Source: Haematobia irritans (lineage: Eukaryota; Arthropoda; Insecta; Diptera; Muscidae). From it: a stretch of 64,000 bases of DNA. The notes beneath the pieces are model-generated. The model made no database searches. It was not told the origin of the DNA and saw nothing but the letters and a program-made list of their open reading frames with translations. The position numbers and the translations under genes are program-made. Where the stretch lies: contig NC_134397.1 in assembly GCF_050003625.1 (NCBI RefSeq), positions 197,987,063 to 198,051,062 on the forward strand. The letters are read 5' to 3'. This document shows, piece by piece, positions 4,324 through 61,704 of this stretch (its first letter is position 1; the number at the start of each line of letters is the position of its first letter).

Positions 4324-4468
4324 CCCAGCAAAACATCTGATTACCAACTAATCTTGGAGGTAACTAAGTTGAAAGTTGGTAAGCAATTACTATTAAAGAG
4401 AAATCTTGGTTAATTTAACATTATTTCAAACCACACGGTAATGCTAGCTGCATATTTATTTTGCTGGG
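4324..4468. repeat. Short MITE with CCCAGCAAAA terminal inverted repeats
   Basis: A 145-bp segment begins CCCAGCAAAA (4324-4333) and ends TTTTGCTGGG (4459-4468), a perfect 10-bp inverted pair. The ends match those of family M (for example 12577-13140), but the interior differs. It is a plausible non-autonomous element mobilised by the same machinery. Confidence 0.55.
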
Positions 4469-4494
4469 AATGATGAATATGACGAACAGGGCCA

Positions 4495-4775
4495 TAATTT
4501 TCTATAGAAATAACATTTTGACAAAATTTCCTATAGAAATATAACTATGACAAAATTTTCCATAGAAATAAAATTTTGACAACATTTTCCATAGAACTAA
4601 AATTTTGACAAAATTTTCTATAGAAATAAAATGTTAACAAAATTTTCTAAAGAAATGAAATGTTAACAAAATTTTCCATAGAAATAAAATTTTGACAAAA
4701 TTTTCTAATGAAATAAAATGTTGACAAAATTTTCTATAGAAATAAAATTTTGCAAAAATTTTCTATAGAAATAAG
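4495..4775 (-). repeat. 29-bp minisatellite array B
   Basis: The same unit as array A on the opposite strand (reads 'ttttctatagaaataaaattttgac'), about 10 units. It directly adjoins the short left remnant (4776-4837) of the repeat interrupted by the LINE; array C lies on the other side in the same orientation. Confidence 0.93.
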
Positions 4776-4834
4776 GTTCAAGTGTGGTTCATTGTTGGGT
4801 TTAATGAACTGCCTGAATTTATTCTGATGATTGG

Positions 4835-4837
<3 letters not shown>
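4776..4837 (-). repeat. Left remnant of the repeat split by the LINE
   Basis: Continues on the minus strand from the P-family sequence that ends at 8850, as shown by the 16-bp duplication TTCTGATGATTGGTTG at 4822-4837 and 8850-8865. It merges at 4775 into minisatellite array B. Confidence 0.6.
4822..4837. repeat. Target-site duplication of the LINE, 3' side
   Basis: TTCTGATGATTGGTTG matches 8850-8865 exactly. Its last bases merge with the (TTG)n tail, so the inner boundary may be off by up to 3 bp. Confidence 0.9.

Positions 4838-4868
<31 letters not shown>
4838..4868 (-). repeat. (CAA)n 3' tail of the LINE
   Basis: About ten TTG units on the plus strand (CAA on the element strand) sit between the 3' UTR and the target duplication. 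This simple-repeat tail takes the place of poly(A). Confidence 0.85.
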
Positions 4869-4957: not shown

Positions 4958-7900
4958 TCAAGCATCCACATCGAGTTCAAGGAATCGTGCTGCCTCAACT
5001 GGATGTGTCCAAAGCGAAGCAGGTGTCAGATCTGTCGGTCTAGCAGGACATTCGAAGAGGTGCCTCGTGATATGAGGCGAGTGTCCACAATTCGGGCAAA
5101 CATTCTGAATTGCCGGGTTCAATACGGAGAGGTAACTATTTAGATACCTAGAGATCCCCGATCTTAGCTGGGATAGCACCGACCTGGTTTCTCTAGGAAG
5201 CCGTCTCTCATTTTCACTGATCGGTGGTGGCCTACCTCCCAGTACAACACTGCACTGGTAGGAGTTGATCGCATCTTGAACCGCTGCCGTGTGCACTGCC
5301 CTCAATGCCGTCCTTATTCCCTCATCACTGTCATCGCCGATCACATGTTCTATTGACTGCAAGTCCTTCCTAAAATCAAACCGAATGGGTCTACCCCTCT
5401 CGGTCGTTGCCCTCCTTGAGGTGGCGTGGTTTGGGTGGTTTACACTTCTACACTTTATCAGGTGCTGTTGGGTGAGGAGGGTGCAGTGTTGCCTCACCGA
5501 TAGCATTTTGGACTCATGATGCAGATGCTGTTCCGGGGTCTTGGAGTGACATCCGGTCGTAATCCGCAGCGCAGTATTTTGCACCGTCTGGAGATTTCTC
5601 CATTGGGTATCGCTAATACTGGGAGTCCAAGCAGGGGCTGCGTAATCGATAAGGGGACGACCAATAGACTCGTAGGTCTTTTGTTTCGCCTCTTTATCTT
5701 TCCCCCAGGTGCTACCAGCCAATGCCTTCAGGATCTTGTTTCTGCTCCCAACCTTCTTAGCTACCATTTCCGCATGTTTACCAAAGAGGAACAGGCTATC
5801 AAACGTCACACCAAGAACCTTGGGGTTCTTGGTAGTGGGGATACTCTGGCCACGAATGTGGATATCGAGTTCCATGTTCACCTCTTTAGTCCACGATGTG
5901 AAGATGGTCGCTGTGGATTTGGGGGCAGAAAGTTTCAGATTCCTGTCGTCAAAGAAATCCCTAAGTGCAGGTAAGTAGTCATTTATCCTCACCTCAAGCT
6001 CCCTTATGTCTCTACCTGTGGTCACTATGGAACAATCATCCGCATAGGTTATCAGGTGGACATCTGGTGGTGGTTGGGGAGCTCCAGCCACGTAGAAATT
6101 GAAGAGGAGGGGGGACAATACACCGCCTTGAGGTACGGCCTGTTTGTTCCTCCTGGGCGTTGATCTTTTTCCTCTAAATTCCACATAGGACTGTCTGCCA
6201 GCCATGTAGTTCGCCAACCATCTCTTGAGATTATTGGGAAGGGTGGTTCCCAGAATGTCTCCCAAGAGCGTGGTGTGGTTCACCGTATCGAACGCTTTAG
6301 ACAAGTCCAGTGCTACGAGAATCGAACGTTTATGCGGCCTCTTACTGTTTAGTCCCTCTGCAATGTTGGCTGTTAATTCACACAAAGCAGTGGTTGTACT
6401 CCTGCCCGAGCGGAAACCATGCTGATGTTCTGCCAACATTAGATGTTCTGAAAAGCAGGGCAGTAAAATAGCCTCCAGAATCTTCGTTACGGGGGACAAA
6501 AGAGTAATTGGTCGATACGAGTCTCCAAGGTGTGCCTGTTTCCCTGGTTTCAGAACAGGAACAACCTTCCCTATTTTCCAGATGTCCGGTATTTCAAGGG
6601 TGTTGAGACAAGTATTGAAGATGTGGGTCAGATATCTAACACCATTCTCTCCAATATGTTTCAACATCCTCGTAGCCAAACCATCTGGGCCAATCGCTGT
6701 GGAGCTCTTGGCGGCCTTTATCGCCTGGAGAACATTCTCCCGACTGATGACCATAGGTGGGTTGTCCTGTGTGAGGGCACAGAAGACTCGCCTTTGCTTT
6801 CTACTTGCACGATCGACTGATTGGGGGTGCTCGACAAATTGTCTGCAGAAAGCATTCGCTGCACCTGTGTCGTCTTTCGGAGTTTGCCCCCCAAACAATA
6901 TGGAAATGTTATCCGTAGGTTTGGGGTTCGAGAGGTTCCTGATCGTAGACCACAGCCGTTTGGATCCGAGATCAGACTCCTCCAAATGCTTGCGCCACTT
7001 TTCTCGCTTGTGGGTGGCAACAAGTCGGTCGATCTCCTTAGCGAGACTCGGGATCCTAGGGTCAGCTGGGTCTACTTTCCGGATCTCGTCCCTCTTATCC
7101 GCCAACCTTGATGCTTCCATGGGGAAATTCGGACGGATGTCGGGGATCCATCCCGCTGGTATGCACCTTTTACACGCCCTATTCAAGACATCCCTGAAGA
7201 ATTTCTCTCCAGCCGGCGCTGACGTTGGCAGGGGGGCAGTGGCAAACTCGTACTCGGTTAGCGAGGTAAAAAGCTCCCAATTAGCTTTACCAAAGTTCAT
7301 AAACGTCTTCTCCTCTGGAATTACGGTGTCTGTCCCTAAGTCAATAGACACTGTGATCGGGAGGTGGTCGGAATTCATGGCTATGTCTACATGCCATGAG
7401 GTCTGAGCCACGAGGTCAGAGCTAACCATGGTGATGTCAGGGGAGCTTCGGCAGGTGGCCGTTATGCGAGTCGGGTGGTTTTCGTTCAGTACACAGAAAT
7501 CTGTGTCATCCACCTGATCCGCAATCAATTCTCCTCTGGCATCACATCCAAGCTCTGAATACCAGCTGTCATGATGCGCATTCAGGTCGCCTAACAGGAT
7601 AGTACGCACATTGTTGAGGTGGGGCCTCAACATAGGTTTGTATCCTGTCTGGCAAACAGAATCGGGAGGAATATATACGTTTAGAATACATATATCTTCC
7701 TCCCCCACCGTGACAGTTATCCCCTGTATCTCCAAATGGGGATCGGTCGTGGTCAGTGGCATGGGTCTGTATCTCACGGAATCATGGACAATGAAGGCTA
7801 TTCCCCCTCCGGCATTCCTTTCTCTGTCTTGCCTAATCACAGAGTAGCAGGATGATCTCGTGAGACCATTCCTGCTGGAGAGCTTGGTCTCCTGGAGCGC

Positions 7901-8749
7901 GGTTATGAGAATACCCCTCTTGTCCATGAAATCCGTGATTTCAGTAATCTTCCTTGTCAGTCCATTACAATTCCACTGTAGGATCTTGAGACCACTCAAC
8001 TGGTTCCCAGCAGTGGACGGGACAGTCCGAACTATTGAATGGGCTGACGAGGAAGAGTCTATGGTAGTCTGTCGTGGATGTCGGGTGTTAACTATGGGGT
8101 GGGGTTGCTGAAATTGTTGGATTCTCCGGCAGCAGGTTCCAACAAAGTCAGGGGTATATTGATCAGAATTCCTGAGGCCTGAGCATCTCAGGTGCGTCGA
8201 GGTCTTGCAGATGGAACACCTAACCGGTTTAGCTGCCTATGTGTATCTCTTTCTGCAAGCCTGACATGTCTCTGGACCAGATATACTGTTATTTACGGAC
8301 GGACTCGGATTTGACAAAAGTGTTGATGTGGTTGTATCGTGTGATGATGTGGGGGGATGGGTCATGACAGGTGATGTGGGGTCTGCAGTCACAACGTGAG
8401 AGGGTCTCACTGTTGTGACTACAGGAGGGGGCGACATGGGGGGCAAGCGCACACAGGTGGGACTCTTGAATGTAGGATTGTAATCACCTACATTCCTGAG
8501 TCCCGAGCAACGCAGGTGTACCCAGTTGTGACATTCGCTGCACATCACGGAGTAACCTCCGCGCGTGACCTGCCGCGAACAGACCGGACACACATACTTC
8601 ACTGGACCTGGATTGCTTTCAATGTCGCCAGCACGAAGGAGAAGAATTCTGAGCAGACTGGCTGGCAGACTCTGCCCAGGAGGGAAAAAGGGATGGGGAA
8701 TGGGATGGGATGTTGGATGGGATTTGGGAAAGGGGTGGGGACGGGTTTT
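4958..8749 (-). CDS. LINE polyprotein: 2A leader, two PHD-like zinc fingers, AP endonuclease, reverse transcriptase, CCHC knuckle; one in-frame amber
   Basis: One frame runs from 8749 to the TGA at 4958-4960 and is broken only by TAG at 8237-8239. In order: Pro-rich leader; GDIESNPGP (8603-8629); finger 1 C-x2-C-x12-C-x2-C-x4-H-x2-C (from about 8590); finger 2 with identical spacing and the TAG inside it. The EN follows (numbering the 1013-residue block that starts at 7999): ALQET E37, GDLN 137-140, SDH 210-212. The RT has YRPI 495-498, LDLSKAFD 564-571, PQGGVLSPLLF 623-633 and catalytic YADD 652-655. The C-terminal knuckle is C968-x2-C971-x8-H980-x3-C984. EN nicks target DNA and RT copies the element RNA there (target-primed reverse transcription). 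The frame has no AUG between the upstream stop (8750-8752) and the 2A motif, so its start is unresolved; the block at 7999 begins with TTG and is not a true start. All catalytic residues look intact. Confidence 0.92.
8603..8629 (-). other. 2A-type ribosome-skipping motif, GDIESNPGP
   Basis: Minus-strand codons for G-D-I-E-S-N-P-G-P, preceded by a Leu/Arg-rich stretch (LLRILLLRA, 8630-8656). This matches the 2A consensus D-x-E-x-N-P-G-P with its hydrophobic upstream helix. In known 2A peptides the ribosome fails to form the last Gly-Pro bond, so separate proteins arise without a protease. Here the break would fall between 8606 and 8605, leaving Pro as the first residue of the zinc-finger/EN/RT protein. 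Activity is inferred from the motif only. Confidence 0.85.
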
Positions 8750-8849
8750 CTATACCTACTTGATTTCCCAAGGGGAAGTTGCAGTCCTTGGACAAGGACG
8801 TGGTCCTTGTGTCGACCCCGGTACGAAGAACCGACTGCAGTGAGGGCCG

Positions 8850-9045
8850 TTCTGATGATTGGTTGATAGTTTTGCTGCAAGTAGAGGATGCTGATGAGGA
8901 ATGTGGTAATTCCGAAACGTGCGTCCATCCAACCATCTTGTAGTCTATAGGGCTTTGCCCAAATAAATTTGACAAACATTCTTTTCCTCTGTTGATTAAG
9001 CTACATTTGTAGTTTAGTCTATGTATGGTTTTAAGCTGAACTAAA
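8850..9045 (-). repeat. P-family foldback repeat, LINE-interrupted copy
   Basis: Homologous to the foldback element at 32509-32730 and to 24905-25115. Shared sequence includes 'gggctttgcccaaataaatt' and the arm 'aagctacatttgtagttta'. The copy continues at 4776-4837 across the LINE. Its first 16 bp (8850-8865) are the LINE target duplication. It joins minisatellite array C at 9045. Confidence 0.75.
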
Positions 9046-10628
9046 AAAAAAAAGAAATAAAATTTTGCAAAAATTTTCTATAGAAATAAAATTTTGACCA
9101 AATTTTCCATAGAAATAAAATTTTGACAAAATTTCCTATAGAAATAAAATTTTGGCAAAATTTTCCATAGAAATACAATTTTGGCAAAATTTTCTATAGA
9201 AATAACATTTTGACAACATTTTCCATAGAAATAAAATTTTGACAAAATTTTCTATAGAAATAAGATTTTGACAAAATTTTCTATAGAAATAAAATTTTGA
9301 CAAAATTTTCTATAGAAATAAAATTTTGACAAAATTTTCTATAGAAATAAAATTTTGACAAAATTTTCTATAGAAATAAAATTTTGACAAAATTTTCTAT
9401 AGAAATAAAATTTTGACAAAATTTTCTATAGAAATAAAATTTTGTCAGAATTTTCTATAGAAATAAAATTTTGACAAAATTTTCTATAGAAATAAAATTT
9501 TGACAAAATTTTCTATAAAAATAAAATTTTGACAAAATTTTCTATAGAAATAAACTTTTGACAAAATTTTCTATAAAAATAAAATCTTGCAAAATTTTCC
9601 ATAGAAATAAAATTTTGACAAAATTTTCTATAGAAATAACATTGACAAAATTATTTATAGAAATAAAATTTTGACAAAATTTTCTATAGAAATAAACTTT
9701 TGACAAAATTTTCTATAAAAATAAAATCTTGCAAAATTTTCCATAGAAATAAAATTTTGACAAAATTTTCTATAGAAATAACATTGACAAAATTATTTAT
9801 AGAAATAAAATTTTGACAAAATTTCCTATAGAAATAAAATTTTGACAAAATTTTCCATAGAAATAAAATTTTGACAAAATTTTCTATTGAAATATAATTT
9901 TGACAAAATTTTCTATAGAAATAAAATGTTGACAAAATTTTCTATAGAAATAAAATTTTGACAAAATTCTCCATAGAAAAAAAAGTTTGACAAAATTTTC
10001 TATAGAAATAACATTTTGACAAAATTTTCTATAGACATACATTTTGACAAAATTTTCTATTGAAATAAAATTTTGACAAAATTTTCTATAGAAATAAAAT
10101 GTTGACAAAATTTTCTATAGAAATAAAATTTTGACAAAATTTCCTATAGAAATAACATTTTGACAAAATATTCTATAGAAATAACATTTTGACAAAATTT
10201 TCTATAGAAATAACATTTTGACAAAATTTTCCATAGAAATAAAATTTTGACAAAATTTTCCATAGGAATACAATTTTGACAAAATTTTCTATAGAAATAA
10301 AATGTTGACAAAATTTTCCATAGAAATAAAATTTTGACAAAATTTCCTATAGAAATAAAATTTTGACAAAATTTTCTATAAAAATAACATTTTGACAAAA
10401 TTTTCTATAGAAATAACATTTTGACAAAATTTTCCATAGAAATAAAATTTTGCAAAAATTTTCTATAGAAATAAAATTTTGCAAAAATTTTCTATAGAAA
10501 TAAAATTTTGACAAAATTTTCTAATAGAAATAAAATTTTGTCAAAATTTTCTATACAAATAAAATTTTGACAAAATGTTCTATAGACATAAAATTTTGAC
10601 AAAATTTTCTATACAAATACAATTTTGA
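9046..10628 (-). repeat. 29-bp minisatellite array C
   Basis: About 55 units of 'ttttctatagaaataaaattttgacaaaa' on the plus strand, that is the minus orientation of the unit. Several stretches are nearly homogeneous (9250-9420). A segment of about 120 bp around 9545-9660 recurs at 9680-9800 ('aaaatcttgcaaaattttcc' and 'ataacattgacaaaattatt'), showing local segmental duplication. Confidence 0.95.
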
Positions 10629-13445: not shown

Positions 13446-14378
13446 AAGGGTGATTCTTTTGAGGTTAGGATTTTCATGCATTAGTATTTGACAGATCACG
13501 TGGGATTTCAGACATGGTGTCAAAGAGAAAGATGCTCAGTATGCTTTGACATTTCATCATGAATAGACTTACTAACGAGCAACGCTTGCAAATCATTGAA
13601 TTTTATTACCAAAATCAGTGGCAGAAAATCCGCTTTTTTATCGACAAATTTTGTTCAGCGATGAGGCTCATTTCTGGTTGAATGGCTACGTAAATAAGCA
13701 AAATTGCCGCATTTGGAGTGAAGAGCAACCAGAAGCCGTTCAAGAACTGCCCATGCATCCCGAAAAATGCACTGTTTGGTGTGGTTTGTACGCTGGTGGA
13801 ATCATTGGACCGTATTTTTTCAAAGATGCTGTTGGACGCAACGTTACGGTGAATGGCGATCGCTATCGTTCGATGCTAACAAACTTTTTGTTGCCAAAAA
13901 TGGAAGAACTGAACTTGGTTGACATGTGGTTTCAACAAGATGGCGCTACATGCCACACAGCTCGCGATTCTATGGCCATTTTGAGGGAAAACTTCGGAGA
14001 ACAATTCATCTCAAGAAATGGACCGGTAAGTTGGCCACCAAGATCATGCGATTTGACGCCTTTAGACTATTTTTTGTGGGGCTACGTCAAGTCTAAAGTC
14101 TACAGAAATAAGCCAGCAACTATTCCAGCTTTGGAAGACAACATTTCCGAAGAAATTCGGGCTATTCCGGCCGAAATGCTCGAAAAAGTTGCCCAAAATT
14201 GGACTTTGCGAATGGACCACCTAAGACGCAGCCGCGGTCAACATTTAAATGAAATTATCTTCAAAAAGTAAATGTCATGGACCAATCTAACGTTTCAAAT
14301 AAAGAACCGATGAGATTTTGCAAATTTTATGCGTTTTTTTAAAAAAAAAAGTTATCAAGCTCTTAACAAATCACCCTT
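13446..14378 (+). mobile_element. DD41D Tc1/mariner deletion derivative, copy 1 (933 bp)
   Basis: Inserted at TA (13444-13445 and 14379-14380) inside a 150-bp host unit. Removing one TA and the element restores 'ggggctatatataattatg', as in neighbouring units. The ends are AAGGGTGATT... and ...AATCACCCTT. The element has lost its central N-terminal coding part, and exactly the same junction occurs in the 933-bp copy at 60772-61704. Confidence 0.93.
13559..14271 (+). pseudogene. DD41D transposase with internal deletion
   Basis: An ATG at 13559 opens a 20-residue N-terminus (MNRLTNEQRLQIIEFYYQNQ). The sequence then jumps at about 13617 into the catalytic half in a different frame, so the helix-turn-helix DNA-binding region is gone and the fusion is out of frame. 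The catalytic part is open from 13618 to the TAA at 14269-14271. Counting from the GTG at 13618, the triad is D15 (SDEAH), D108 (QQDGATCH) and D150 (TPLDYF). That leaves 41 residues between the last two, which defines the DD41D/rosa group. The catalytic residues are intact, but without the DNA-binding domain the copy cannot be autonomous. Confidence 0.92.
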
Positions 14379-15415
14379 TATAATTATGAACCGATGTGGA
14401 CAAATTTTTGCACGGTTGGTAGAGACCATATACCAAAACCATGTACCAAATTTCAGCCGGATCGGATGAAATTTGCTTCTCTTAGAGGCTCCGTAAGCCA
14501 AATCGGAGGATCGGTTTATATAGGGGCTATATATAATTATGGACCGATGTGGACCAATTTTTGAATGGTTGGTAGAGACCATATACCAAAACCATGTACC
14601 AAATTTCAGCCGGATCGGATGAAATTTGCTACTCTTTGAAGCTCCGCAAGCCAAATCTGGGGATCGGTTTATATGGGGGCTATATATAGTTATGGACCGA
14701 TGTGGACCAATTTTTGCATGATTGGTAGAGACCATATACCAAAACCATGTACCAAATTTCAGCCGGATCGGATGAAATTTACTTCTCTTTGAGGCTCCGC
14801 AAGCCAAATCTGGCGATCAGTTCATATGGTGGCTATATATAATTATGGACCGATGTGGACCAATTTTTGGATGGTTGTTGGAGACCATATACTTACACCA
14901 TGTACCAAATTTCAGCAGGATCGGATGAAATTTGCTTCTCTTTGAGGCTCCGCAAGCCAATTCTGGGGATCGGTTTATATGGGGGCTTTATATAATTATA
15001 GACCGATGTGGACCAATTTTTGCATGGTTGTTAGAGACTATATACCAACACCATGTACCAAATGTCAACCGGATCGGACGAATTTTGCTCCTCCAAGAGG
15101 CTCCGCAAGCCAAATCTGAGGGTCCGTTTATATGGGGGCTATACGTTAAAGTGGACCGATATGGCCCATTTGCAATACCATCCGACCTACATCAATAACA
15201 ACTACTTGTGCCAAGTTTCAAGTCGATAGCTTGTTTCGTTCTGAAGTTAGTGTGATTTCAACATACGGACGGACGGACGGACATGTTTAGATCGACTCAG
15301 AATTTCACCACGACCCAGAATATATATACTTTATGTGGTCTTAGAGCAATATTTCGATGTGTTACAAACGGAATGACAAAGTAAATATACCCCCCATCCT
15401 ATGGTGGAGGATATA

Positions 15416-31829: not shown

Positions 31830-32500
31830 ATTTTCAAAATTTTGTATTTTTTTATCAAAATTTTGTTTCTACAGAAAATTTCGTTTCTATAGAAAATCGT
31901 GTCAAAATTTTATTTCTGTAGAAAATTTTGTCAAAATTTTCTTCTATAGACAATTTTATCAAAATTTTATTTCTATAGAAAATTTTTTCAAAATTTTATA
32001 TATATAGAACATTTTTTCAAAATTTTATTTATATAGAAAATTTTCTCAAAATTTTATTTCCATAGAAAATTTTTGTAAAATTTTATTTCTATAGAGAATT
32101 TTGTCAAAATTTTATTTCTATAGAAAATTTTGTCAAAATTTTATTTCCATAGAAAATTTTGTCAAAATTTTATTTCTATAGAAAATTTTGTGAAAATTTT
32201 ATTTCTATAGAGAAATTTGTCAAAATGTTATTTCTATAGAAAATTTTGTCAATTTTTTTCATTATTGTTGTTTTTGATTCAAGCTTAAAACCATGCATTG
32301 AAAAATTTTTTTTAAATTTTATTTCTATAGAAAATTTTGTCAAATTTTAATTCCATAGAAAATTTTGTCAAAATTTTATTTCTATAGAAAATTTTTGCAA
32401 AAATTTATTTCCATAGAAAATTTTTGCAAAATTTTATTTCCATAGAAAATTTTCTCAAAATTTTATTTCTATAGAAAATTTTGTCAAAATTTTTTCATTA
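31830..32500 (+). repeat. 29-bp minisatellite array D, with a P-family end fragment inside
   Basis: Two runs of the 29-bp unit (about 31850-32255 and 32310-32500) are separated by 'tttttgattcaagcttaaaa', a short copy of the left arm of the P-family foldback. The second run leads straight into a full P element at 32509. The same order (array, then P left arm) is seen on the minus strand at 9045. Confidence 0.88.
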
Positions 32501-32784: not shown

Positions 32785-34538
32785 AACAAGTATATACGGC
32801 CGTAAGTTCGGCCAGGTCGAATCTTAAATACCCACCACCATGAATCAAAAATTAGGGTTCCTTTGAAATTTCAGGGGGGTTTGAGGACAAATCAAGCAGA
32901 GCAGTTCAACCATTGCACTTTAAAGATTTTACCTATGAAGACTATATCAGATTCTGGATTTGTAAGAACCATTTTTTGTTTGAGTTTTAGAGGAATCATT
33001 AACATCTCTTGTAAGTGTGCAAGAAAATTATAAAATAACGTCTTGATTTGAAATCTTAAATCTGTAGATTTTCACCCGAGAAGTAAAACCTGGAAATTTT
33101 ACATTGAGTTTCAAGCAATTTTCATGATCGGTGCGCCTTCTATACCCTCAAGAAGTGAAGGCGGTCTATATGGAGGCATTACCAAAAGGACCGATAAAAA
33201 TTTAATCCGATACCCGTTTTTGTAGGCCTAAAATACCAGAATATTTACAATTTCAAGCAAATCAGATAAAAACTACGGTTTCTAGAAACCCAAGGAGTTA
33301 AATCGGAAGATCGTTCTTATGGAGGCTATACTAAAATATGGACCGTTTCACCTTTTTCGACACATCTCTTTATGGCCCGAAAATATCTCTAGATTTCCAA
33401 TTTCAGGCAAATTGGATAAAAACTTCGGATTCTAGAAGTCCAAGAAGTAATCCCGATTTTACTATATGGTCTATATGGGGGCTATATCAAAACATGGACC
33501 GATACTCACCATTTGTGGCAAATCTCTTTATGGTCCTTAAATACCTATATATTTCCAATTTCAGGCAAATTGTATATAAACTACGGATTCTATAAACCCA
33601 AGATGTAAAATCGGGAGATCGGTCTATATGGGGGCTATACCAAAACATGTAACGATACGGACCATTTTCGGCACACCTTTTGATGGTCCTCAAGTACCTC
33701 TAGATTTTCAATTTCAGGCAAATTGGATAAAAACTACGGTTTCTATAAGCCCAAGACCCCAAATCGGGAGGTCGGTTTATATGGGGACCATACCAAAACA
33801 TGGACCGATGCTCACCATTTTTGGCACACCTCTTTACGGTTCTAAAGTACCTCTCGATATCCAATTTCAGGTAAATTGGATAAAAACTGCGGTTTCTATA
33901 AGCCCAAGAAGTAAAATCGGGAGATCGGTCTATATGGGGGCTATACCAAAATATGGACCGATACTCACAATTTTTGGCACACGTATTTGTGGTCCTGCAA
34001 TACATCTAGATTTCCAATTTCAGGTAAATTAAATAAAAACTGCGGTTTCTATAAGCCCAAGAAGTAAAATCGGGAGGTCGGTCTATATGGGGGCTATACC
34101 AAAACATGGACCGATACTCACCATTTTGGCACACCTCTTTATGGTCATAAAATACCTCCAGATTTCAAGTTTCAGGCAAATTGGATAGAAACTACGATTT
34201 CTATAAGCCCTAGACCCCAAATCGGGAGGTCGGTTTATATGGGGACTATATCAAAACCTGGACCGATATAGCCCATCTTCGAACTTGACCTGTCTGCAGA
34301 CAAAAGACGAGTTTGTGCAAAATTTCAGCACGATTGCTTCATTATTGAAGACTGTAGCGTGATTACAACAGACAGACGGACAGACGGACAGACGGACATG
34401 GTTATATCGTCTTAGAATTTCTCCCTGATCAAGAATATATATACTTTATATAGTCGGAAATCGATATTTCGATGTGTTACAAACGGAATGACAAACTTAT
34501 TATACCCCTGTCACCATTCTATGGTGGTGGGTATAAAA
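32785..34538 (-). mobile_element. Tandem-unit element related to family 1, inverted copy
   Basis: Begins at the end shared with 62264 ('aacaagtatatacggccgta'), with hairpin GGCCG-N6-CGGCC at 32798-32813. It has about six roughly 150-bp units ('aaatcgggagatcggtctat', 'gggggctataccaaaacatg') and finishes with 'cagacagacggacagacgga', 'aatatatatactttatatag' and the head 'tatggtggtgggtataaa'. The unit sequence differs from the 12.4 and 59.6 kb elements although both ends are alike, so this is a sister family. ORFs across it are repeat artefacts. Confidence 0.78.
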
Positions 34539-56356: not shown

Positions 56357-57470
56357 GGTCAATTAGTTTGTGAGATAGAGCGTCTTTTGTGAAGCAACTT
56401 TTGTTATTGTGAAAAAAATGGAAACAAAGCAATTTCGTGTTTTGATAAAATACTGTTTTCTGAAGGGGAAAAATACGGCGGAAGCAAAAACTTGGCTTAA
56501 TAATGAGTTTCCGGACTCTGCCCCAGGGAAATCAACAATAATTGATTGGTATGCAAAATTCAAGCGTGGTGAAATGAGCACGGAGGACGGTGAACGGTGT
56601 GGACGCCCCAGAGAGGTGGTTACCGAGGAAAACATCAAAAAAATCCACAAAATGATTTTGAATGATCGTAAACTGAAGTTGATCGAGATAGCAGAGGCCT
56701 TAAAGATACCAAAGGAACATGTTGGTCATATCATTCATCAATATTTGGATATGCGGAAGCTCTGTGCAAAATGGGTGCCGCGCGAGCTCACATTTGACCA
56801 AAAACAACAACGTGTTGATGATTCTGAGCGGTGTTTGCAGCAGTTAACCCGAGTTTTTCCGTCGATATGTGATAATAGATGAAACATGGCTCCATCACTA
56901 CACTCCTGAGTCCAATCGACAGTCGGCTGAGTAGACAGCGACCGGTGAACCGTCTCCGAAGCATGGAAAGACTCAAAAGCCCGCTGGCAAAGTAATGGCC
57001 TCTGTTTTTTGGGATGCGCATGGAATAATTTTTATCGATTATCTTGAGAAGGGAAAACCCATCAACAGTGACTATTATATGGCGTTATTGGAGCGTTTGA
57101 AGGTCGAAATCGCGGCAAAATGGCCCCATATGAAGAAGAAAAAAGTGTTGTTCCACCAAAACAACGCACCGTGCCACAAGTCATTGAGAACAATGGCAAA
57201 AATTCATGAATTATGCTTCGAATTGCTTCCCCACCCACCGTATTCTCCAGATCTGGCCTCCAGCGACTTTTTCTTGTTCTCAGACCTCAAAAGGATGCTC
57301 GCAGGGAAAAAAATTGGGTGCAATGAAGAGGTGATCGCCGAAACTGAGGCCTATTTTTAGGCAAAACCGAAGGAGTACTACCAAAATGGTATCAAACAAT
57401 TGGAAGGTCGTTATAATCGTTGTATCGCTCTTGAAGGGAACTATGTTGAATAATAAAAACGAATTTTGAG
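56357..57470 (+). mobile_element. Mariner (DD34D) element, copy B, truncated at both ends
   Basis: Homologous to copy A from 'tcaattagtttgtga' (56358) to 'aaaacgaattttga' (about 57470). Neither terminal inverted repeat is present, so this copy was trimmed or inserted as a fragment. Confidence 0.88.
56418..57453 (+). pseudogene. Mariner transposase, decayed (copy B), second catalytic Asp changed to Asn
   Basis: ATG 56418; TAA 57451-57453. The N-terminal half is open (helix-turn-helix, GRPREVVTEENIK linker, second helix-turn-helix KLIEIAEALKIPKEHVGHII). A short deletion near 56850 shifts the frame. The catalytic part has VIIDETWLH (first Asp kept), then TAG at 56932-56934, HQNNAPCH with AAC for the second Asp (57160-57162), SPDLASSDFFLF (third Asp kept) and TAG at 57358-57360 (a Glu/Asp position). 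The first-block to C-terminal order is normal for mariner, with 34 residues between the second and third catalytic positions. Non-functional. Confidence 0.92.
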
Positions 57471-59515: not shown

Positions 59516-60771
59516 CATCACAATTGACTGGGTAATTTAAAATAAGCTAAAATAACCGGCTAATACAACCTAAATTAAATTTTTATACCCTCCACCATAG
59601 GATGGGGGTATATTAACTTTGTCATTCCGTTTGTAACACATCGAAATATTGCTCTAAGACCCAATAAAGTATATATATTCTGGGTCGTGGTGAAATTCTG
59701 AGTCGATCTAAGCATGTCCGTCCGTCCGTCCGTCTGTTGAAATCACTCCAACTTCCGAACGAAACAAGCTATCGACTTGAAACTTGGCACAAGTAGTTGT
59801 TATTGATGTAGGTCGGATGGTATTGCTAATGGGCCATATCGGTCCACTTTTACGTATAGCCCCCATATGAAGGGACCCTCAGATTTGGCTTGTGGAGCCT
59901 CTAACAGAAGAATATTTCATCCGATCCGGCTGAAATTTGGTACATGGTGTTAGTATATGGTCTCTAACAACCATGCAAAAATTGGTCCATATCGGTGGAC
60001 TTTTACGTATAGCCCCCATATAAACGGACCTCTAAATTTGGCTTGCGATTGCTCTAAAAGAAGCAAATTTCATCCGATCAGGCTGAAATTTGGTACATGG
60101 TGTTAGTATATAGTCTCTAACAACCATGCAAAAATTGGTCCACATCGGTCCATAATTATATATAGCCCCCATATAAACCGATCCCCCGATTTGGCTTGCA
60201 GAGCCTCTAAGAGAAGCAAATTTCATCCGATCCGGCTGAAATTTGGTACATGGTGTTGGTAATGTTCTCTAATGACCATGCAGAAATTGGTCCACATCGA
60301 CCCATAATTATATATAGCCCCCATATAAGCCGATCCCCAGATTTGACCTCCGGAGCCTCTTATAGGAGCAAAATTCATCCGATCCGGTTGAAATTTGGTA
60401 CGTGGTGTTAGTATATAGTCGCTAACAACCATGCAAGAATTGGTCCATATCGGTCCATAATTATATATAGCCCCTATATAAATCGATCCCCAGATTTGTC
60501 CTCCGGAGCGTCTTGGAGGAGCAAAATTCATCCGATCCGTTTGAAATTTGGAACATGGTGTTAGAATGTGGTCTCTAACAAACACGCAAGAATTTGTCCC
60601 TATCGGTCCATAATTATATATAGCCCCCATATAAACCGTTCCCCAGATTTGATCTCCGGAGCCTCTTGGAGGAGCAAAATTCATCCGATCCGGTTGAAAT
60701 TTGAAACGTGGTGTTAGTATAAGGCCGCTAATAACCATGCCAAAATTGGTCCATATCGGTCTATAGTTATA

Positions 60772-61704
60772 AAGGGTGATTTGTTAAGAGCTTGATAACT
60801 TTTTTAAAAAAAAAAACGCATAAAATTTGCAAAATCTCATCAGTTCTTTATTTGAAACGTAAGATTGGTCCATGACATTTACTTTTTGAAGATAATTTCA
60901 TTTAAATGTTGACCGCGGCTGCGTCTTAGGTGGTCCATTCGGAAAGTCCAATTTTGGGCAACTTTTTCGAGCATTTCGGCCGGAATAGCCCGAATTTCTT
61001 CGGAAATGTTGTCTTCCAAAGCTGGAATAGTTGCTGGCTTATTTCTGTAGACTTTAGACTTGACGTAGCCTCACAAAAAATAGTCTAAAGGCGTCAAATC
61101 GCATGATCTTGGTGGCCAACTTAGCGGTCCATTTCTTGAGATGAATTGTTCTCCGAAGTTTTCCCTCAAAATGGCCATAGAATCGCGAGCTGTGTGGCAT
61201 GTAGCGCCATCTTGTTGAAACCACATGTCAACCAAGTTCAGTTCTTCCATTTTTGGCAACAAAAAGTTTGTTAGCATCGAACGATAGCGATCGCCATTCA
61301 CCGTAACGTTGCGTCCAACAGCATCTTTGAAAAAATACGGTCCAATGATTCCACCAGCGTACAAACCACACCAAACAGTGCATTTTTCGGGATGCATGGG
61401 CAGTTCTTGAACGGCTTCTGGTTGCTCTTCACTCCAAATGCGGCAATTTTGCTTATTTACGTAGCCATTCAACCAGAAATGAGCCTCATCGCTGAACAAA
61501 ATTTGTCGATAAAAAAGCGGATTTTCTGCCACTGATTTTGGTAATAAAATTCAATGATTTGCAAGCGTTGCTCGTTAGTAAGTCTATTCATGATGAAATG
61601 TCAAAGCATACTGAGCATCTTTCTCTTTGACACCATGTCTGAAATCCCACGTGATCTGTCAAATACTAATGCATGAAAATCCTAACCTCAAAAGAATAAC
61701 CCTT
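60772..61704 (-). mobile_element. DD41D Tc1/mariner deletion derivative, copy 2 (933 bp)
   Basis: Same length, ends and internal deletion junction as 13446-14378, on the opposite strand, flanked by TA (60770-60771 and 61705-61706). Also inserted inside a family 1 150-bp unit. Confidence 0.93.
60879..61591 (-). pseudogene. DD41D transposase with internal deletion and a nonsense codon
   Basis: ATG at 61591-61589, the same short N-terminus and the same out-of-frame junction at about 61532 as copy 1. The catalytic half keeps SDEAH, QQDGATCH and PLDYF, but the TGG of FLWGY is TGA (61068-61070), so the frame ends before the C-terminal 60 residues. The remaining sequence to the TAA (60879-60881) is otherwise readable, with a Leu-to-Phe change. 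Very few differences from copy 1. Confidence 0.92.

Follow-up and report, generated by a model that had tools for sequence, protein, structure and literature searches.

Results

A LINE with a 2A motif in the horn fly

The window, a stretch of 64,000 nucleotides from the horn fly Haematobia irritans, carries a LINE copy of 4,012 nt on its minus strand (8849 to 4838; all positions are those of the window). The boundaries were set by its 5' and 3' sequences and by a search for target-site duplications (TSDs). These are 16 nt long, with the 5' copy (CAACCAATCATCAGAA) at 8850-8865 and the 3' copy at 4822-4837; the first CAA of the duplication could be part of the tail instead. The 3' end is an (ACA)n tail (4838-4868). 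A 29-bp tandem array (ATTTTGACAAAATTTTCTATAGAAA...) flanks the copy on both sides (4370-4772 and 9033-10491), and its unit recurs near 32460. Two PHD-like fingers come first in the protein. Finger 1, C-x2-C-x12-C-x2-C, at 8495-8590, barely reached the Pfam PHD cut-off (24 bits, E 3.8e-5). Finger 2, at 8183-8266, was identified in the translation by its similarity to finger 1 and is broken by an in-frame TAG at 8237-8239. This stop is not found in the intact copies L035, L036 and L039-L042; it makes the window copy a dead one. An apurinic-type endonuclease domain (7355-7981, PF03372/PF14529) and a reverse transcriptase (5801-6526, PF00078, E 1.4e-30) follow, i.e. the open reading frame downstream of the 2A motif has Pfam matches to Exo_endo_phos_2, Exo_endo_phos and RVT_1. 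PDB matches of the reverse transcriptase include L1 ORF2p and R2. A C-terminal Cys/His cluster, C-x2-C-x8-H-x3-C, was read from the translation at 5048-5098. With endonuclease and reverse transcriptase domains, TSDs and a simple-repeat 3' tail the element has the properties of an APE-type LINE. Pfam gave no match to an RNase H domain in the family of the window copy, termed A, or in the second family described below, termed B. RNase H is present in more distant 2A-bearing homologues, e.g. P0184.

Other repeats were seen elsewhere in the window. Two near-identical open reading frames at 13600-14271 (plus strand) and 61071-61550 (minus strand) look transposase-like by eye, with no Pfam match at E <= 0.01, and one at 56379-56882 (plus) has a Mos1 transposase HTH domain (HTH_48, E 9.2e-8). 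The open frames at 14355-14816 (minus), 33580-34032 (plus) and 60223-60783 (minus) consist of tandem near-identical units and are probably satellite-like repeats.

The motif lies in frame ahead of the fingers

The minus strand at 8629-8603 encodes GDIESNPGP in the same frame as finger 1. The initial annotation had placed this motif, at exactly this position, ahead of VKYVCPVC; its spacing of three before the first finger cysteine needs correction, as four residues separate the last Pro from the first Cys. In the core GDIESNPG/P the skip is predicted to fall after the Gly codon (8608-8606) and before the Pro codon (8605-8603). The core is preceded by LPASLLRILLLRA (8630-8668), a StopGo upstream context which is conserved according to copy alignments and codon selection. 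The frame that opens after a stop at 8750 reads SLPASLLRILLLRAGDIESNPGPVKYVCPVC, motif included; its open leader, which starts with the codon that follows the stop and ends directly ahead of the core, spans 8630-8749.

The sequence was compared with known StopGo motifs. The core (D/G/C/N)(V/I)ExNPGP is present in frame, and 16 of the 17 first-aligned family A copies read GDIESNPGP, the exception being L033 with NPGA. Thus, neither loss of the motif nor a shift out of frame, which the initial annotation had named as grounds for abandoning its proposal, is a property of the family. By reading, LLLRAG-D (family A) and LLVRA-G (family B) match published L-rich StopGo classes. With D at p12, G at p11 and S at p15 family A resembles the L-rich motifs 2/6, and with its AG end at p12 family B resembles motif 5 of Li et al. 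2026 (PMC12846837).

A chance origin was considered and rejected. The codon pattern D[IV]ExNPGP matched 39 times in 1,173,491,510 bases on 181 contigs and AG[IV]ExNPGP 350 times genome-wide; both reversed patterns gave 0 matches. At least 28 of the 39 matches fell within scored hits of a search of the genome for the LINE N-terminus.

Two families with the motif under codon-wise selection

In this N-terminus search 150 of 879 candidates were scored. Two LINE families, A and B, have 2A in the same place; in the N-terminal stretch B is about 49% identical to A. Among the 150 scored candidates six copies of family A keep at least 1263 codons open. Family B has at least 43 rows with open frames of at least 1131 codons, of which at least 38 have exactly 1149. 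Because family B is young and this numerous, the arrangement has evidently been mobile. Together with translation and Pfam domains, these copies bear out the annotated in-frame StopGo/2A motif ahead of fingers, endonuclease and reverse transcriptase in a muscid LINE. In a further set the motif was absent from 2 of 20 loci (L071, L072). At L056 and L060 and in the genome at C2:149760420 and 149760558 the 2A motif stands two or three times in a few hundred bases; such sites are old copies whose 5' ends are duplicated or nested.

Next, silent and replacing changes were counted. Purifying selection on the 2A codons across copies, for which the initial annotation had proposed to test, was indeed found. 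In the 21 leader/2A codons A differs from B by 16.2 silent changes per 18.0 sites and 9.8 replacing changes per 45.0 sites, a pN/pS of 0.24 compared with 1.55 and 2.89 in the shifted frames. In the 27-28 codons upstream of the leader pN/pS was 0.77-0.85. Comparison of A with an older sister, A', yielded 0.13 over the leader/2A from LPAS to NPGP, against 0.37 for finger 1 and 0.69 upstream of the leader; directly before the leader 8 codons had 0 silent and 18 replacing changes, in very few columns. Five intact A copies had pN/pS values of 0.12-0.46 over 1236 codons. The B subfamilies B1, B2 and B3 were compared with 11 copies chosen by eye as clean; a set that included copies with indels gave a noisy result. 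At -21 to -1 silent changes exceeded replacing ones in frame, 3.17 vs 1.40 per pair. At -33 to -22 the in-frame counts were about even (1.70 vs 1.90), against 0.30 vs 3.35 and 1.12 vs 2.52 in the other frames; above -33 nothing clear emerged. This codon-wise selection shows, at the level of sequence comparison, that the leader/2A frame is translated.

The motif in relatives of other organisms

Two protein searches returned 191 homologous proteins. Among the first 120, a complete first finger with at least 14 residues ahead of it was present in 30, all of which had NPGP there (30/30). The other 90 lacked a complete finger, in most cases since their predicted sequence begins later. Of the next 71 proteins 32 had a matched finger, with NPGP in place in 26. 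HPGP replaced it in P0153, P0154 and P0157, P0164 and P0190 had an N-terminal NPGP ahead of a finger which the search had overlooked, and P0156 had neither. In total, 62 homologues with a matched finger and upstream sequence comprised 58 with NPGP, 3 with HPGP and 1 with neither. Independent of the finger, [VI]xx[NH]PGP was found within the first 330 residues of 75 of the 191 proteins; among the 116 without it a single one had a matched finger and upstream sequence. Named hosts are Diaphorina citri, Sergentomyia squamirostris, Anastrepha ludens and Haematobia irritans. The motif thus extends beyond muscids and stands in the same place in many metagenome contigs as well as in a psyllid, a sand fly and a tephritid fly. 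One homologue comes from a record with the label Streptomyces, probably by contamination. The conserved leader of the relatives is PAxLLRxLLxxAG(I/V)ExNPGP. An alignment, A1, comprised 18 proteins picked for having the motif, so its invariant NPGP columns are no evidence of conservation. No relatives were found in viral contigs with the window protein and A1 as queries or in a collection of genome contigs with A1; the N-terminal piece as a query of the protein collection gave 32 candidates, none significant.

In several relatives the core itself varies. Histidine replaces the core E (DVHxNPGP, GIHxNPGP), or the motif ends in HPGP, in P0002, P0140, P0141, P0158, P0160, P0167, P0177, P0179, P0153, P0154 and P0157. 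Their viral counterparts are rare StopGo sequences with p14=H and p16=H (Li et al. 2026, PMC12846837). These variants bear on the question whether skipping takes place at all. Conceivably the motif is a conserved peptide flanking the finger, which NPGP always adjoins, and has a structural role; the mature protein would then retain the leader or begin at a downstream Met. Yet conservation tracks the StopGo core and its L-rich context, unlike that of a generic linker, the p14=H and p16=H variants are active in vitro according to Li et al. 2026 (PMC12846837), and family A would lose half of finger 1 if its protein began at the first Met downstream. We consider a protein made with no skipping very improbable.

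A predicted HDV-like ribozyme at the 5' end

On paper, the 5'-terminal 72 nt of the LINE (8849-8778, minus strand) fold into the nested double pseudoknot of an HDV-like ribozyme, with P1 at 8849-8843/8819-8813, P2 at 8839-8833/8786-8780, P3 at 8832-8830/8822-8820 with a 7-nt L3, P4 at 8810-8803/8799-8792, and a J4/2 that starts with C (CCAAG, 8791-8787). The prediction draws on a helix check, a descriptor scan and alignments. TSDs of at least 13 nt stop exactly before the first ribozyme base in 9 of 21 loci (the window and 20 others), and 4 further loci (L033, L035, L040, L043) are compatible with one ambiguous base. Short TSD matches of 8 and 10 nt were obtained at L047 and L050 and just a CAA-repeat match at offset -2 at L036; the search found no TSD in L031, L042, L045 and L049, and L034 has no 5' end.

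The ribozyme end is present in 16 of 17 family A copies. Defects are a mismatch in P1 (L033), P2 (L044) or P4 (L046, by eye) and an unpaired first base (L031). Family B has different P1, P2 and P4 sequences, with the P3 core and the order of parts as in A. All four helices form in both families despite differences of sequence or length outside the P3 core. Within B, in an alignment that leaves out 15 of 42 copies, 97.3% of 374 cells are paired, against 15.8-47.1% when slid; covariation is slight, as only 2 of 22 pairs changed on both sides, a value reached by 27 of 500 shuffles. A scan of both window strands with the descriptor matched at minus 8849 and at two A/T-rich sites, 20561 plus and 32462 minus. 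In Markov sequences made as controls it matched twice in 640 kb with the composition of the window and 0 times in 400 kb with a LINE-like composition. Rfam returned no HDV family match for the A or B ribozyme up to E 5 or 10. Because no curated covariance model matches, we call the ribozyme HDV-like by architecture. Both families are predicted to start at such a ribozyme, which would cleave itself.

Rfam also returned a weak tymovirus tRNA-like match at 8761-8830 (minus strand), at chance level (12.8 bits vs a cut-off of 40, E 1.1). The 5' UTR of L1Tc is described as tRNA-like in PMC4035085.

An in-frame AUG is missing in nearly all copies examined

The initial annotation took the motif to separate a short leader from the protein, which presupposes a leader that begins at a start codon. 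In this form it was not supported. In 15 of the 16 A/A' copies with a 5' end (L034 is therefore excluded) no usable in-frame ATG lies between that end and the motif; the one seen in three of the four A' copies runs into a stop ahead of the leader. The window copy lacks ATG in any frame from 8849 to the motif. The exception is the intact copy L036, in which an A-run of the 5' UTR is longer by one A and an ATG is thereby shifted into the 2A frame; its source may use AUG. Likewise, no in-frame ATG was seen ahead of the motif in 30 of the 31 B copies with a recognisable 5' end, which the other 11 of the 42 lack. Here the exception, L103, has an ATG inside the 2A, 12 codons before the skip, too late for a 2A peptide. 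That the missing start is mere damage of the window copy was rejected, as copies in which the whole frame is open also lack it: 5 of 6 in family A and 4 of 4 full-length B copies examined. Since an in-frame AUG is absent in nearly all of the copies examined, ribosomes seem to enter without one. The tephritid relative P0164, a gene model from Anastrepha ludens, has its annotated Met start within the 2A region (MIILRAGIESNPGP), a hint that it, too, has no upstream in-frame AUG.

Out-of-frame ATGs are common. In frame 1 one is found at -143 in 27 of 31 B copies, with an open reading frame extending to -20, and another at -155 in 9 of 16 A/A' copies, open to +1. In frame 2 an ATG is located at -169 in 10 of 16 A/A' copies. 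The latter was rejected as a general start of family A, because the window copy and the majority of A' no longer have it and the ATG of B is in another frame. In the A and B leaders five or six consecutive T, about 28 codons ahead of the skip, encode a conserved Phe. At this site, possibly a slippery one, the ATG-headed out-of-frame reading frames overlap with the leader.

Possibly, then, translation starts at an upstream out-of-frame AUG and reaches StopGo by programmed frameshifting, e.g. at the U-run of the conserved Phe, which in A and the majority of B copies falls inside the overlap. The main-frame constraint in B, which begins at about -33 with none visible further up, agrees with this, as do the few A/A' differences at -9 to -1, which are silent in the uORF frame of A. 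However, the frame-1 ATG is absent from the window copy and from L031-L033, L043 and L046, most A copies have their first ATG in the other wrong frame (-169, frame 2), that of B is part of the 5' strand of ribozyme helix P4, and the uORF frames have no clear codon constraint. Such frameshifting appears quite unlikely to us.

A near-cognate codon right before the conserved Pro might also serve as start, CTG in A and ATC in B; this would leave a leader hardly longer than the 2A peptide. CTG is found in 17 of 17 first-aligned A/A' copies and ATC in the first-aligned B copies, the constraint between A and B starts at this codon, and 19 of 27 relatives have Met, Leu or Ile at this position, Met in several of them. 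However, the M of relatives is uncertain, as one set by a gene finder may stand for GTG or TTG; this also holds for the Met that many of their predicted proteins have upstream, which speaks against an entry without AUG. Moreover, the ATC of B is in a poor context with U at -3, and between B subfamilies the frame appears weakly constrained higher up, at -33 to -22. We regard a near-cognate start at this codon as unlikely.

Discussion

Our preferred reading is that the window LINE belongs to a young APE-type family with a ribozyme-made 5' end, entry of ribosomes that needs no AUG, and skipping at NPG/P; taken as a whole we consider it probable. Skipping, self-cleavage and the mode of initiation are deduced from sequence features and would be connected as follows. 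The HDV-like ribozyme in the first ~72 nt, a predicted structure, would trim the 5' end of the RNA. Ribosomes would enter downstream of it without the in-frame AUG which was seen to be absent, and would translate a leader that ends with xPxSLLRxLLxRAG(D)IExNPG. The last bond, at NPG/P, would not be made and the leader would be released, as the conserved motif and its upstream context suggest. The protein of fingers, endonuclease and reverse transcriptase would then begin with a uniform Pro, and skipping may also free its N-terminus from an imprecise start. A single protein, with two PHD-like fingers, endonuclease and reverse transcriptase, would thus be made behind a StopGo/2A peptide.

A more far-reaching version, which we put forward tentatively as the less probable part of this account, is that StopGo replaces the start codon in defining the N-terminus. 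Ribosomes would be loaded AUG-free near a self-cleaved, uncapped 5' end and might use variable or unusual start codons; 2A would trim all chains to the same first residue. In single-protein LINEs there is no second domain to separate, yet 2A is retained at the very front. Two families in one fly link it with a 5' end predicted to be ribozyme-made and a missing in-frame AUG. If general, replacement of the start codon by StopGo would explain 2A ahead of the only protein of single-ORF LINEs. Skipping as a clean-up of AUG-less initiation is an idea testable with short reporter constructs. In addition, the relatives supply natural StopGo variants outside RNA viruses, including H for E or N.

How does this arrangement compare with known systems? 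The viral L-rich StopGo sequences share the (D/G)(V/I)ExNPGP octapeptide, the L-rich context and the preceding (A/S/C)G; the L-rich context is of importance, and variants with p12=G, p14=H and p16=H can function in viral contexts (Li et al. 2026, PMC12846837). Unlike these, the horn-fly motif is within a LINE and at a protein N-terminus.

R2 elements have no AUG, to our knowledge, and we know of no 2A in them. For R2 of insects a ribozyme-processed 5' end is described and cap-independent initiation is proposed in PMC12203849 and PMC3774820, a precedent for the horn-fly LINE in both respects. R2 differs in being site-specific and in using another endonuclease.

L1Tc of trypanosomatids has an RNase H domain. 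It is reported to contain 2A (Heras 2006). L1Tc/ingi elements resemble the horn-fly LINE in endonuclease and reverse transcriptase, in 2A at the protein start and in a 5' HDV-like ribozyme, the latter described for L1Tc in PMC4035085. The horn-fly LINE differs from them in its insect host, the PHD-like fingers, the missing RNase H match in A and B and the lack of an in-frame AUG.

2A has reportedly been found in APE-type LINEs of many animals, in the clades Rex1, Crack, L2, L2A, CR1 and Ingi (Odon 2013, cited in PMC12846837 and PMC4981915), and a survey of eukaryotic 2A sequences (Rao 2025) may already list such insect elements. In titles and abstract openings of the open-licence literature we found no 2A LINE without AUG and none such in muscids, nothing on 2A in horn-fly LINEs and no paper on non-AUG starts of R2. 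The elements of the 2013 work are like those of the horn fly in being single-ORF LINEs with an N-terminal 2A-like sequence ahead of endonuclease and reverse transcriptase. The two horn-fly families may differ from them in the predicted 5'-terminal HDV-like ribozyme and in having no in-frame AUG in nearly all copies examined. 2A in APE-type LINEs is thus already known; the surprise is that the in-frame AUG before it is missing in nearly all of these copies.
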